From the NCBI RefSeq assembly GCF_039851975.1, contig NZ_CP156660.1:806001-870000 (forward strand): a stretch of DNA of 64,000 bases. Direction: 5' to 3'. A program made the position numbers and the translations under genes. Within the stretch, counting starts at the first letter, position 1. Every line of letters begins with the position of its first letter. Source of the stretch: Desulfoscipio sp. XC116. GTDB lineage: Bacteria; Bacillota; Desulfotomaculia; Desulfotomaculales; Desulfallaceae. Below, piece after piece: positions 7,541 through 57,853 of the stretch. Under the pieces are notes generated by a model, which had not been told where the DNA came from, searched no databases, and saw only the letters and a list, made by a program, of their open reading frames with translations.

Positions 7541-7728
7541 AGTTTACCTCATATTAGAGTTTACCTCGAAATGTGAAATCCGGTCTTCCGGATTACAGAT
7601 CGTCACCCTCCTTGTCGTGCTAATCGCCGACCGCAGGCGTTAAATGCGGAACCACCTTAAGCTGTTTCAACAGTTTAAGGGGCCGTGGTAAAATCTCGGT
7701 ATGGTGAGGCACCCCAGAGCCGTTTTTT
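7541..7728. other. Non-coding stretch with direct repeat and hairpins
   Basis: No gene seen. An 18-bp unit containing TATTAGAGTTTACCTC is repeated in tandem at the start, partly inside the end of the TauE gene (about 7537-7568). AATCCGG/CCGGATT (7578-7595) and CCTTAA...TTAAGG (about 7653-7679) can form hairpins. It leads straight into a dispersed repeat copy. Confidence 0.5.
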
Positions 7729-7861
7729 GCACAACGGACTAAATAGTTCATAGTACGGCAGCCTTTTGTAAAAATACCGGATTATTATCGGAGTAATTGG
7801 CTGCATCTGGGAAAGGGAGGGTCGCTCACTACTCCAAGAAGTAGTTTTGCGACACTCCCTT
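7729..7861 (+). repeat. Dispersed structured repeat R1, copy a
   Basis: About 133 bp nearly identical to the reverse complement of 18710-18848 and, in its 3' two-thirds, to 45886-45965. It starts with GCACAACGGACTAAATAGTT and ends with a strong hairpin whose arms are GGGAG-N-GTCGC and GCGAC-A-CTCCC, with inner arms ACTACT/AGTAGT. It contains no credible reading frame. Likely a miniature mobile element or a structured RNA. Confidence 0.75.
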
Positions 7862-7902: not shown

Positions 7903-9261
7903 TTATCGCAAATTCATTTTTTGCAAGGCTTGTTCAGAAGCTATGGTAATAGGTTCACGACTGGGCTCGGAAGAACAGTCGGGGTTTCCGGCACACATCA
8001 GAGTGGTCATTTGCTTTGCAGTCATTCCCCCTAGAATGAGAGCATTAATGGTATCTATTTCTTTTACAGGTGCCACAGTATTGCTGATAATTTGTCCGCC
8101 CAGCAGTTTTTGCGTGATTTTATCAAATACCAGTTTTAGCGTCCAAGACTCATTTCCCGGGATCATCCTATGCTTGCTGCTGGAATCGACCGTCACTCCC
8201 AAAGCGTTAAATCCTTCTTTTGCAGCCTGGTCTTCATTCAGCCCGGTGGCGCCGATATATTTATTAAAAATACGCACTGCTGAATTATTCAAAACCCCTG
8301 GAAAAGGAATATTATAGCCGGCAAGCCTTTTGGCAATAAGGCGCCCCTGGATAACTGCCGGTCCGCGCAATAAAGAGGGTGCTAACTTTTTAGTGATGAA
8401 ATGTTCCGTTTCGATAATATCCCCGCCCGCTAAGATATCGGGGTTGGAAGTTTCCAGGTATTCATTTACTTTAAGTCCGGTTTTTCCTATTTCTAATCCT
8501 GCTTCTCTGGCTAGTTCCAGGTTAGGGCGGGTACCTACGGAAAGCACCACCATATCCGCATCTAAAATTTCCCTATTGTCCAGTATTACACCGCTGACCG
8601 CTCCATTTTTCCCCATAATCTCCGTTACTTTTTGCTTTGTTTTTAGCTGAAAACCCTGCTCCTTTAAAAAATTAGTTGCAATTTGCCCCATTTCTTTGTC
8701 CAGCATGAGTGGAAGCGGGTGCTCTAACAGTTCAATAATCGTTATATCGTATACACCAGGATTTTCCTCGCTAAGAAGTGCAGCCAACTCAAGATTCAGG
8801 AAACCGGCTCCCACAAAAACCAGCTTTTGGGGATGTTTGTTTTGCAAATAATTTTGTATTTTTTGGGCGTCGGGAGCGTTGCGCAAAGTAAAAACACCCT
8901 GCAGTTCATTGCCCGGTATAGGAGGAACAAAGGGGCTGGCGCCGGTAGCAAGAACAAGTTTATCATAGGGTAATTTTCTTCCGGTAGAAATAGTTATATT
9001 TTTAGCGTTAACGTCCAAGGTGGTAACTCTGTCTATTATGAGATTAATTCCTGCGTCCGCAAACATCTTATCGGGATTTGTAATAGAATCGACAGTAGCC
9101 TGACCGGCCACCACATGGGGCAGAGCTCAACGGACAATAAAGCGTTCTTCCGCGCGAATAATGGTGACGTTAACATCCGGCATCAGTTTTTTAGCTAATA
9201 TTGCCGCAGGACCGCCCAATCCACCGCATCCAACAATAACCAACTGTTCACCTATTTGCAT
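7903..9261 (-). CDS. Selenocysteine-containing FAD/NAD(P)-dependent disulfide-type oxidoreductase
   Basis: One 452-residue protein read through an in-frame UGA (9127-9129) at codon 45. Without readthrough it would be two fragments that join exactly: the N-terminal dinucleotide motif VIVGCGGLGG (residues about 8-17) and the rest of a CoA-disulfide-reductase/NADH-oxidase fold with LATGASP, a second NAD motif VFVGAGFLNLELA and the FAD motif ILAGGDI. The UGA falls in RFIVR-U-ALPHVVAG, where the family has its redox-active cysteine, and a bacterial SECIS-like hairpin follows at 9095-9111. Near the C-terminus CAGNPDC could supply a partner thiol. Start 9261 has GGAGGGGG upstream. It is divergent from a MarR gene that may control it. 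Substrate unknown. Confidence 0.87.
9095..9129 (-). promoter_or_regulatory. UGA codon and bacterial SECIS-like hairpin
   Basis: Fifteen bases after the UGA, GTGGCC (9111-9106) pairs with GGCTAC (9100-9095) around the loop GGUCA. The stem length, the GU in the apical loop and the distance match the known formate dehydrogenase SECIS of E. coli. This supports selenocysteine insertion rather than a nonsense mutation. Confidence 0.75.
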
Positions 9262-9514
9262 TATTTCCCCCTCCTTTTGCATAACTATTAAATTCAATAT
9301 TATGATAATACGATATATTTTATAAAGCAATACCGGCCATTAAAAGATACTGTGTCTTATCGTTGATATTCTCATCTATACTAATCGTATCTCAATGTTA
9401 TGAAACCATGTTAAATAATATAGCTGCGGATAAATTTTGAAAGAGTTTAATCGGCCTTTTAGAATTCACTAAAAGCTTTGCCCCGCTATTCTTCCTCCAG
9501 GACCCTTTGAATAC

Positions 9515-14979: not shown

Positions 14980-15264
14980 TTGCTATTGTCCCTCCACTTT
15001 GACAAAAGACATATTCATCGATAAGAGGGGGGAAAATATTAATATATCTTTTTAGTATCATTTTCTCCCGCAACCTGGCAATCATTGCGCTGCAGATAAT
15101 CTTAAGCGCTTTAGACCCATGGCTTTGCGCCCTAATCTTTCGATGTAGTTTGCCTTTGTGAAACAGATATTAAAAATAAATTAAGCATATTATATAACTA
15201 TAAGGTTACATATTTCAACAAAAATAAACCACTTGTATGCATCGTAAAAAATTGAGGTTTAGAA

Positions 15265-15952: not shown

Positions 15953-16029
15953 TGGCTGGGGCGGCTGGATTCGAACCAACGAAATGCCGAAGTCGCCAGC
16001 TCGGTGCCTTACCGCTTGGCGACGCCCCA
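15953..16029 (-). tRNA. tRNA-Gln-like tRNA with 8-nt anticodon loop (function uncertain)
   Basis: Acceptor TGGGGCG/CGCCCCA with discriminator G and encoded CCA, D-arm GCCAAGCGGTAAGGC and T-arm GTTGGTTCGAATCCAGC are almost identical to the normal tRNA-Gln(TTG) at 35861-35935. The anticodon arm differs. CCGAG (16004-16000) pairs with TTCGG (15991-15987) and leaves an 8-nt loop, CTGGCGAC, instead of 7 nt. Counting from U33 the triplet would be GGC (Ala codons), or a quadruplet GGCG. The variable loop also has six instead of five bases. It could be a frameshift-type tRNA, a recoding tRNA or a decaying copy. Confidence 0.7.
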
Positions 16030-16032
16030 GTA

Positions 16033-16128
16033 TGGAGGGGAGAAGTCGGAATTGAACCGGACTCCCACCTGGGTTGCAGGCAAGCCAACGGGTTTGCAGC
16101 CCGCGGGGGGACCATCCCCTTTCTCCCC
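16033..16128 (-). tRNA. Noncanonical tRNA-Cys(GCA) with SelC-like architecture
   Basis: A 96-nt tRNA. The acceptor stem is 8 bp (GGGGAGAA/TTCTCCCC) with discriminator U and encoded CCA. The D-arm is GGGGA-TGG-TCCCC with a tiny loop. The anticodon stem GCGGG/CCCGT carries loop CTGCAAA, anticodon GCA. A long variable arm of about eight pairs (CTTGCCTG/CAGGTGGG) follows, then a T-arm with loop TTCAATT and one bulged or mispaired base. Normal tRNA-Cys has a 7-bp acceptor and a short variable loop; 8-bp acceptor and long arm are features of tRNA-Sec. U73 and GCA are the main Cys identity elements. It is the first of three tRNAs in this minus-strand cluster. Confidence 0.8.
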
Positions 16129-21046: not shown

Positions 21047-21640
21047 GTGTTGGTAACTAAACAAGCACCGGCTTTCAAGGCTAAGGCATTTTACCAGGGT
21101 CAAGTAAGACAGGTAGCATTGGAAGATTACAAGGGAAAATGGGTAGTGCTTTGCTTCTACCCCGGGGATTTCACCTTCGTTTGACCTACTGAGATTTCGC
21201 ACATAGCCGTTGGCTATGATAAACTCAAGTCTCTGAATGTAGAGGTTTTGTCCTGCAGCACGGACAGCGTGTTCTCCCATAAAGTTTGGAATGAAACTGA
21301 ACTTTCTAAAATGGTGGGGGGCGATATCCCTTTCCCCATGTTGTCAGACCAAACGGGAGCGATTGGCAAATTGTATGGCGTTTATGATGAAGACGCAGGG
21401 GTAAATATCCGCGGCCGGTTTTTAATTGATCCGGAAGGCGTTATCCAGGCGGCGGAGATATTAAGCCCGCCCGTGGGCAGGAACCCGCAAGAGCTTATTC
21501 GTCAAGTCAAGGCTTATCAACATCATCAGAAAACCGGCGAGGTAATGCCTTCCGGGTGGGTTGAAGGCAGCCCAACCTTAAAGCCGTCAACTGACCGGGC
21601 GGGAAAAGTTTGGGAAGTATGGCAGCCCCCTAAAGAGTGA
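21047..21640 (+). CDS. Selenocysteine peroxiredoxin (AhpC/Prx1-like)
   Basis: About 197 residues read through UGA 21182-21184 (residue 46). The motif is DFTFV-U-PTEI, so selenocysteine replaces the peroxidatic cysteine of the canonical FVCPTEI site. A hairpin with a 7-bp stem and GUU loop follows at 21202-21218. The catalytic Thr and Arg context is intact ([19 protein letters not shown]). The resolving-cysteine motif near the C-terminus, normally VCP-x-W, reads VMPSGW, so the protein lacks the usual resolving cysteine and may use an external thiol. It reduces hydrogen peroxide or organic peroxides. GTG 21047 follows AAGGGGG and is the start in frame. Confidence 0.92.
21182..21218 (+). promoter_or_regulatory. 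UGA codon and SECIS-like hairpin (peroxiredoxin)
   Basis: Seventeen bases after UGA, CATAGCC (21202-21208) and GGCTATG (21212-21218) form a perfect 7-bp stem with loop GUU. The distance and the GU in the loop fit bacterial SECIS elements. Confidence 0.78.
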
Positions 21641-26905: not shown

Positions 26906-27151
26906 CTTTCACCATCCTCCCTCTAAAAGCTTTTTTTTATCTATAATAATTTACCCATAGTATTCCTTAAAAAACTAGGCAAACTAAGGAAAAAAGCAGA
27001 CATGAGCCGGGGTATGAGCAAGACTTTATATTTTTTAATTATAAACACTTATACCTTAAACTTTCTAACCGGAACTCCGGCAGGATAATCGGCCTTGGTA
27101 ATGAATTAGTTAGTGTAACTATAGTAGTAAAGAGAAAGGGAAGGGAGTATC

Positions 27152-27616
27152 ATGCCGGCGCAAATTGTACTGGCTGCCATAAATCGGGAGCAGCTGGCTG
27201 TTGTCGGCCGTATTGCGGCTGCGCAGGGGGTGGTTGTTTTCGGCACTATGGATGGCGTGTTGTTGGAAAAAATAAATATTGGCGGCGCGAGCGAAGATGT
27301 ACCTGTATATTTTTACGAGCCGGGCTGAGACTGGCCCCGTAAAGTGGTTGCCGTGGGCAAGCTGAAAGCTGTGTGGACCGATTTGCCGGATGCGGATGAT
27401 GAGGTGGCGTTTAAAAAGGAGTTTAACCGTTATTTCGGTGCTGATTGGGATAAGTTGCTGCTGGGGGCGGACAAGCCCTTTGACCATCACCGGTACTGGG
27501 ACGGTTATTGTGCCGTGGCGGATGTGCTGACCGGTCAGGTTTGCACCTTGCTTGACGTGACCGGGGCGGGCAGCGACGGTGTAAAGCCGCTGTGCTATAA
27601 TATGCTCGTGGTTTAA
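27152..27616 (+). CDS. Unrecognised selenoprotein candidate
   Basis: A 154-residue protein read through an in-frame UGA (27326-27328) at codon 59. Upstream and downstream parts are in the same frame and end at one stop. ATG 27152 follows GGAAGGGAG. The N-terminal half is strand-helix-strand (QIVLAAINREQLAVVGRIAAAQGVVVFGTMDGV), then VYFYEPG-U-DWPRKVVAVGKL. The C-terminal half has DHHRYWDGYCAVADVL and two more cysteines (GQVCTLL, PLCYNM). A SECIS-like hairpin follows the UGA. I do not recognise the family, and no redox motif such as CxxC or UxxC is seen. It lies 27 bp before a YkgJ-type cysteine-cluster gene and may be cotranscribed. Confidence 0.72.
27326..27360 (+). promoter_or_regulatory. 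UGA codon and SECIS-like hairpin (unknown selenoprotein)
   Basis: Nineteen bases after UGA, TTGCC (27348-27352) pairs with GGCAA (27356-27360) around a GUG loop. The surrounding GGUUGCC resembles the E. coli formate dehydrogenase SECIS (GGUUGC). The stem is shorter than in the peroxiredoxin case, so the support is moderate. Confidence 0.6.
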
Positions 27617-28477: not shown

Positions 28478-28663
28478 AATTGATCTTGTATGAGCGGCAC
28501 TGTCAGAAGGGTGGAAATTTAATTTTTGGCAATTAGTTATAAGGTTTGTCAGCCATCCCGGGTATTTAAATGTTCCCGGGTGGCTTTGGGTATTCTGGCA
28601 TATGTCTTGCATATTTACACTTTACATAAGTATTCAATAAATTATTTCATGGAGGGATGTATT

Positions 28664-29185
28664 TTGCCGTCGATAAAAAATATTGACGATATGACCAGAG
28701 AACAGCTAATTGATTTTATAGCAGATTTAAGTAAGCGCTGGCTTGCTCATGACGGTCTGTGGTTTCAGGCCGTAGAGAAAAAATACGGTATGGATAACGC
28801 TATTGAAGCCGATGCCGCGGCTTGGGAAAAGTTTACGGTCATTGAAGCCAAACGGATTAAACAGTTTCTCGGGCTGCCGGAACAGGGCGGGCTGGAGGCG
28901 TTGGAACTGGCCCTGCAGTTCCGGCTATATGCTTTCCTAAATAAACAGGAAATTATTCGCGAGTCCTCCCATAAGTTGATTTTCCGCATGAATTCCTGCC
29001 GGGTGCAAGCGGCTCGTGAACGCAAAAAAATGGACTTTTTCCCGTGCAAGCCGGTAGGTTTGGTGGAATACAGCGGCTTTGCCCGTGCCGTTGACCCGCG
29101 TATCAGTACCCGGTGTATTTGTTGCCCGCCGGATGAGCCTGAGGAAGGCTGCCACTGTGCTTGGGAGTTCACACTGGAGGGGTAA
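28664..29185 (+). CDS. Conserved cytosolic protein with C-terminal cysteine motif (DUF6125-like)
   Basis: About 173 residues. DDMTREQLIDFIADLSKRWLAHDGLWFQAVE and a helical middle part lead to MNSCRVQAARERKKMDFFPCKPVGLVEYSGFA and CICCPPDE..C-x-CAW. The conserved Cys pattern suggests metal binding. Family name from memory and uncertain. TTG 28664 is chosen because GGAGGG lies seven bases upstream; ATG 28649 overlaps that site. Confidence 0.6.
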   Translation: MPSIKNIDDMTREQLIDFIADLSKRWLAHDGLWFQAVEKKYGMDNAIEADAAAWEKFTVIEAKRIKQFLGLPEQGGLEALELALQFRLYAFLNKQEIIRESSHKLIFRMNSCRVQAARERKKMDFFPCKPVGLVEYSGFARAVDPRISTRCICCPPDEPEEGCHCAWEFTLEG

Positions 29186-39524: not shown

Positions 39525-39713
39525 TTCGATAATAATTAACCCGGCAGTACGTTTTTATCTTTCGACCAATAACTTATTAATTGGCTAAATAGGGCTGTGA
39601 TTATGTTATAAAACGAGATATTTTGGCAGAATGACCATTTAGTTGTTTGACTATCTAAAATCAAAGGCATAAAATAACATGGTAAGCCTTATTAAGGGAG
39701 GCGCATAAAAATT

Positions 39714-39836
39714 TTGTCACCGAATTCCCGTTGTGGGAAACGGGGGAACCACTTTGGGGGTGAAATGCAAATTTGCATGGGGCTAACACTTCGGTCCCAA
39801 CCCGTCAGCTAACCTCGTAGGTGTGGAAAGTGAGGC
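39714..39836 (+). ncRNA. c-di-AMP riboswitch (ydaO/yuaA type)
   Basis: The region carries the conserved features of the ydaO motif: CGGGGGAACC, GGGGGTGAAAT, GGGGCTAACACTTCGGTCCC and AACCCGTCAGCTAACCTCGTAG before GTGTGGAAAGTGAG. It ends four bases before a cell-wall hydrolase gene, the commonest target class of this riboswitch. The longest conserved block is quoted in two parts only by description; identity is recognised by pattern. Confidence 0.85.
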
Positions 39837-39839
39837 ATC

Positions 39840-57393: not shown

Positions 57394-57707
57394 ATTTTTA
57401 CAATCCCCCTTTCCTCTAAATTTGTAAATTTAACCTTTATTCTAAAGGTCACCAGGCCGGAGGTGTTTTTCCCGGACCTGTAATAGAACAGCTCCTTGCT
57501 CCAGGGTTTTAGCACTTAACAAAAAATGAGCTTAATCAAATATATGCTTGACAAGTGAAAAAAGTGAGAAAATTGTTCATAGACATTCATGCCGCTATGC
57601 GGTTTGGGATTGCTTTGCTTGCGCCCGCAATGACAGTTGCCATTTTACCTAAACGCTTGCGTTATATAAAAGCTTGCAATATAATAAAAAAAACCAAATA
57701 TTTATTA

Positions 57708-57853
57708 GCGCTAGGGGTGCCCGGAAAGTCCGGGCTGAGAGGGGCCGCACTGAGAAGAGGCCTAAACCCTTGAACCTGACCTGGATAATACCAGCGGAGG
57801 AAAGCGGCAGAAATTGCACTTATCCCTTCCAACCTGGAAGGGATTTTAGTTTA
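57708..57853 (+). ncRNA. TPP riboswitch with terminator platform
   Basis: The thi-box aptamer has TAGGGGTGCCCGG, CCGGGCTGAGAGG, CCTTGAACCTGACCTGGATA and ATACCAGCGGAGGAAAG in order. ATCCCTTCC (57822-57830) and GGAAGGGAT (57836-57844) followed by TTT form the terminator. It lies 127 bp before thiC and should switch it off when thiamine pyrophosphate is plentiful. The region 57394-57707 holds no gene. Confidence 0.95.

Follow-up and report, generated by a model that had tools for sequence, protein, structure and literature searches.

A probable new selenoprotein family encoded beside a CxxCxxCC/YkgJ-type gene in Desulfoscipio sp. XC116

We analysed a window of 64,000 nucleotides from the genome of Desulfoscipio sp. 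XC116 (contig NZ_CP156660.1, positions 806,001 to 870,000). The window contains a reading frame that crosses a single in-frame UGA and lies directly ahead of a gene for a CxxCxxCC/YkgJ-type metal-binding protein. From the letters alone, this frame had been proposed to encode an unrecognised selenoprotein: two in-frame halves bridged by one UGA at codon 59, with a strong ribosome-binding site upstream and a hairpin resembling a selenocysteine insertion sequence (SECIS), with a GUG loop, downstream. Coordinates and frame were reproduced exactly, the ribosome-binding site is present just ahead of the ATG, and the hairpin covaries in relatives. As described below, the gene very probably encodes a member of a new, previously unrecognised selenoprotein family. 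This view rests on a conserved UGA, selection on both sides of it, the covarying SECIS, the presence of selenocysteine (Sec) machinery and the lack of any match in family libraries.

Of the 113 genomes searched in the order, 46 carry the gene, and these span 30 of the 55 genera; a repeat search with a 48-row profile returned the same 46 genomes. Matches in a phylum-wide sample of 398 genomes were confined to the order, and the plasmid and viral-contig collections contained no relatives. The window copy and 47 relatives were aligned. UGA occupied one alignment column in 46 of the 48 members, at identities to the window copy down to about 25%, and every single-copy homologue had UGA at this site. 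The two exceptions are second copies from genomes that also carry a UGA copy. The copy with Ile (L042) is sister to the Sec copy of the same genome, G007 (L047); the copy with Ala (L046) comes from G008, whose Sec copy (L078) falls in the other subfamily. The original prediction had called for a search for homologues with Cys at position 59. None was found among the 113 genomes of the order, the 398 phylum genomes and the plasmids (other phyla were not searched by profile), and Ile and Ala in the second copies were the sole departures from UGA. Neither Trp nor Arg occurred at the site among the 48 aligned homologues. Homologues lacking Cys and Sec, or carrying an ordinary Trp or Arg codon, had been named as evidence against a selenoprotein; the search for them left the claim standing. 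The tree of the family tracks the host families closely (16 label changes, with a minimum of 14 and a shuffled mean of 32.8), as expected under mainly vertical descent, and descent appears to have been largely of this kind. A degenerate partial second copy with two UGAs was also noted (L036, G072:C252:4799-4942; about 7635-7820, reverse complement).

Purifying selection is equally strong on the two sides of the UGA. The ratio of nonsynonymous to synonymous substitution rates could be computed on either side in 11 close pairs, and was about 0.1-0.4 before the UGA and about 0.1-0.3 after it. No start codon downstream of the UGA is conserved among the members. On the grounds of conservation and selection, we rejected the readings of the UGA as a mutation, an error or a genuine stop.

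The published model of the bacterial SECIS (bSECIS) has a stem of 4-16 bp and a loop of 3-9 nt with an early G, the loop lying 16-37 nt from the UGA (PMC13188914). The geometry of the family hairpin fits this model. Forty members have in common a hairpin at offsets 20-36 after the UGA with a GTN-type loop. Over these 40 sequences, 96.4% of the cells were paired, compared with 87.5% in shuffles; 26 cells were changed on both sides, compared with 6.3 in shuffles, and 13 further pair types were seen. None of 500 shuffles reached the observed value for paired cells, for double-changed cells, for further pair types or for covariation score. For the number of pairs showing a double change, 59 of the 500 did. 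Sliding the pairing partner destroyed the signal. Codons within the hairpin are frozen: Ala67 is encoded by GCC in all 40 sequences and Gly69 by GGC in 38. Measured against synonymous shuffles, the sequence at the UGA folds more stably, with a mean z of -1.07 +/- 0.15, compared with about -0.65 to 0 elsewhere. A G-loop hairpin of bSECIS geometry was present in 45 of the 46 UGA members, nearly always at a spacing of 24 or 17 nt. The minimum free energy (MFE) of the minimal stem was -7.5 kcal/mol or lower in 29 of the 46, compared with 7% of control positions. The window hairpin has one internal mismatch, and its stem alone misses this cut-off; the stem is stronger in most relatives. A smaller subfamily (L040, L041, L043, L044 and L047) carries a hairpin of different sequence, 7 nt nearer the UGA and with GGTN or CGTG loops. 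When the two Sec-less copies were folded for MFE, the hairpin was, by eye, weaker or not found. Judged by covariation and geometry, the hairpin is a covarying bacterial SECIS. The two Sec-less copies represent two independent losses of Sec and, with their apparently weakened hairpins, provide a natural control for the SECIS.

The genome also encodes tRNA-Sec(UCA) and SelB (Table 1), and selA, recognised by its sequence, directly adjoins selB. Since selB scored over the cut-off in 109 of the 113 genomes of the order, its co-occurrence with the selenoprotein is uninformative.

Table 1. Features of the selenoprotein locus, the Sec machinery and other genes of the window
Feature	Position	Strand	Remarks
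Selenoprotein gene (predicted)	27152..27616	+	ATG to TAA, 154 codons, single in-frame UGA
Ribosome-binding site AAGGGAG	27141..27147	+	from sequence; ends 4 nt before ATG
Predicted Sec codon UGA (codon 59)	27326..27328	+	motif VYFYEPG-U-DWPRKVVAVG; same column UGA in 46/48 homologues
Bacterial SECIS hairpin (predicted) GGTTGCC-GTG-GGCAAGC	27346..27362	+	apical loop GTG begins 24 nt after UGA
CxxCxxCC/YkgJ-type metal-binding protein (PF03692), 277 aa	27644..28477	+	Pfam E = 5.4e-9
DUF6125 protein (PF19620)	28526..29185	+	Pfam E = 4.3e-80; third gene of cluster
Peroxiredoxin (AhpC/TSA + 1-cysPrx_C)	21047-21640	+	in-frame UGA at 21182, motif TFVUPTE
Pyridine nucleotide-disulphide oxidoreductase (flavin)	7906-9330	-	UGA at 9129, motif VRUALPHVVAG
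tRNA-Sec(UCA)	G000:C1:1688923-1689017		same genome
selB	C1:1702898-1704781		same genome

The protein could not be placed in a known family when it was first noted, and no family library that we searched recognises it. Pfam, NCBIfam and PHROGs gave no match for any of the 48 members, and Pfam gave none for the consensus sequences; the best NCBIfam 20.0 hit had E = 0.02, to unrelated models. A PDB profile search with the family returned chance matches only. Conservation is strongest in FGTMDG, in VYFYExG-U and at the invariant Ala67, Gly69 and Trp99, and Arg or His stands at U+4 in 47 of the 48 members. No internal Sec-Cys pair is conserved in the alignment, since the commonest other Cys occurs in just 19 members and four proteins lack any other Cys. 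No export signal was apparent by eye.

A review of May 2026 tabulates 119 bacterial selenoprotein families and subfamilies (PMC13188914). The family described here has an in-frame UGA, a downstream G-loop bSECIS at 16-37 nt and Sec machinery in common with them. None of the 119 could be matched to it (supplementary tables of the papers lay outside the comparison, and an unnamed earlier mention is possible), and no listed motif was seen to match VYFYExG-U-xxxR. According to the review, nearly all selenoproteins have Cys homologues, whereas none was found here. NCBIfam 20.0 models many of the tabulated families, but 0 of the 48 members match. The hypothetical selenoproteins DG, DW and DF, found by deep-Sep (PMC12013277), likewise have no recognised domain. 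They differ from our family in having Cys homologues in every case and in originating from Desulfosarcina/Desulfosediminicola, and the NCBIfam models of DG and DF (NF049953 and NF049942) do not match it. The family is not in the 2006 selenoprotein list for D. reducens, and a literature search for the motif gave nothing relevant. With UGA in 46 homologues, the covarying SECIS, two-sided selection and Sec machinery, the original prediction of an unrecognised selenoprotein has about as much support as can be drawn from sequence alone.

From conservation and covariation we infer that UGA-59 is read as Sec by SelB and tRNA-Sec, guided by the hairpin 20-36 nt downstream. The product would be a single chain of 154 residues, small and probably cytosolic. 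In the motif VYFYExG-U-xxxR, Sec would follow a predicted strand. Its conservation together with Arg/His at U+4 and the invariant Ala67, Gly69 and Trp99 suggests that it is the reactive residue. Since there is no conserved resolving Cys, it probably acts as a single selenol rather than through an internal selenenylsulphide. Such a lone selenol could serve as a nucleophile, a one-Sec reductant or a metal ligand, and would be regenerated by a thiol or by a second protein.

The gene directly downstream scored 37.1 bits with PF03692 (cut-off 23), and its product has a CX3CX3CC motif at residues 31-40. This spacing is close to that of the CX4CX3CC motif of FliB, a flagellin lysine methyltransferase in which the motif binds a [4Fe-4S] cluster (PMC8598068). 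The neighbour is not FliB, however, scoring 26 bits with the NCBIfam FliB model (cut-off 85). It likely belongs to the same operon as the selenoprotein and is a plausible partner, though not a universal one. A YkgJ-type gene is adjacent in 13 of the 48 selenoprotein loci, in both gene orders: a PF03692 gene immediately follows the selenoprotein gene in 11 of the 12 genomes of host family f1 and immediately precedes it in both genomes of f5. In one f14 genome, a divergent PF03692 protein is encoded downstream of the selenoprotein. Of the 113 genomes, 47 have an orthologue of the neighbour, and 35 of these carry both genes (Fisher p = 6e-10, without correction for phylogeny). Within the genus of the window, three species have both genes and four have neither. 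The third gene of the cluster encodes a DUF6125 protein and is found there only in this genus (three loci of genus g1); its membership is doubtful. As the selenoprotein and CxxCxxCC/YkgJ genes adjoin in f1 and two other lineages, we propose that the products form a redox pair, in which the selenol would swap electrons or a ligand with an Fe-S or metal centre. Taken by itself, the YkgJ partnership is about as probable as its opposite. We put forward only tentatively, and as rather unlikely, the more specific idea of a Sec-obligate family of no known fold, whose lone selenol is a ligand or electron relay at the Fe-S or metal centre of the CxxCxxCC partner and cannot be replaced by sulphur.

Several observations weigh against this picture. 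Eleven of the 46 selenoprotein genomes have no YkgJ orthologue (E <= 1e-20), most loci outside f1 and f5 have other, unrelated neighbours, and the Fisher p for co-occurrence ignores shared ancestry. In L042 and L046, Ile and Ala take the place of Sec, so retention of the scaffold does not strictly require it. AlphaFold2 models, built from only three sequences, had low pLDDT (44 and 41). The earlier suggestion that the neighbour could be the partner holds in part: adjacency and strong co-occurrence speak for it, the genomes without YkgJ and the varied neighbours against it. A real selenoprotein that has other partners or none, serving for example as a one-Sec reductase of peroxide or sulphur species or as a metal-binding regulator, has a little less than an even chance; YkgJ adjacency would then reflect co-regulation only. 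The missing orthologues agree with this, as do neighbours that are highly variable outside f1, f5 and f14. Adjacency in the differing gene orders of f1 and f5, the divergent CxxCxxCC protein in f14, and co-occurrence with YkgJ, including joint absence inside the genus of the window, argue against it.

It is unlikely that the protein is a Sec-containing member of the EVE/PUA-like superfamily whose ligand pocket holds Sec and binds a modified nucleotide or a small ligand. By eye, length is similar to that of the EVE domain (PF01878; PH1033 1wmm, MJECL36 2p5d), and the motif order NREQL..GVVVFG..L..V.VYFY..G...VVAVG.L loosely resembles that of PH1033-type proteins. One of the 48 members matches PF01878 (E = 0.17), and the best hhalign segment pairs VYFYE.GC..VVAVG with an EVE strand pair. 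We rejected membership because hhalign scores were no better than those of unrelated controls or column-shuffled profiles; no sequence or profile match from the family to the EVE domain was significant. Both of these alternatives are variants compatible with the core claim of a selenoprotein. The claim itself would fall if the UGA were a true stop, giving a 58-residue peptide or two half-genes, or if a suppressor tRNA inserted Trp or some other residue there. Termination at UGA is what the standard code prescribes, but we consider this whole reading very improbable. Selection after the UGA is as strong as before it with no conserved restart codon, the SECIS covaries at a fixed spacing, no Trp, Arg or Cys homologue was found, and the genome has Sec machinery.

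The window holds other selenoproteins, as had been noted: in the peroxiredoxin and in the disulphide oxidoreductase, a known domain runs across a single UGA. The peroxiredoxin is of a known kind of selenoprotein, and the oxidoreductase resembles Sec-containing CoA-disulphide reductases. A tRNA-Cys(GCA) of 96 nt at 16033-16128 (-) has a long variable arm and reached 43.8 bits against the Rfam model of tRNA-Sec (gathering threshold 47); adjoining it, at 15953-16029, is an odd tRNA called with a four-base anticodon. Rfam riboswitches in the window are c-di-AMP at 39708-39839 (+), TPP at 57703-57819 (+) and c-di-GMP-I at 15066-15164 (-).

About 40% of the genomes in this order, which comprises well-known anaerobes, carry the family; in them the gene is probably annotated as truncated or missed. 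Discovery of selenoproteins depends on Cys homologues, and the authors of deep-Sep acknowledge that selenoproteins lacking them may escape their method (PMC12013277). Because our family was never found with an ordinary Cys at the Sec site, it is a case that such searches would miss. Seemingly intolerant of Cys at this site, it is a clear candidate for learning what Sec does beyond Cys, and it suggests that further Sec-only families are hidden. In Desulfoscipio sp. XC116, the predicted selenoprotein gene lies beside a testable partner gene.
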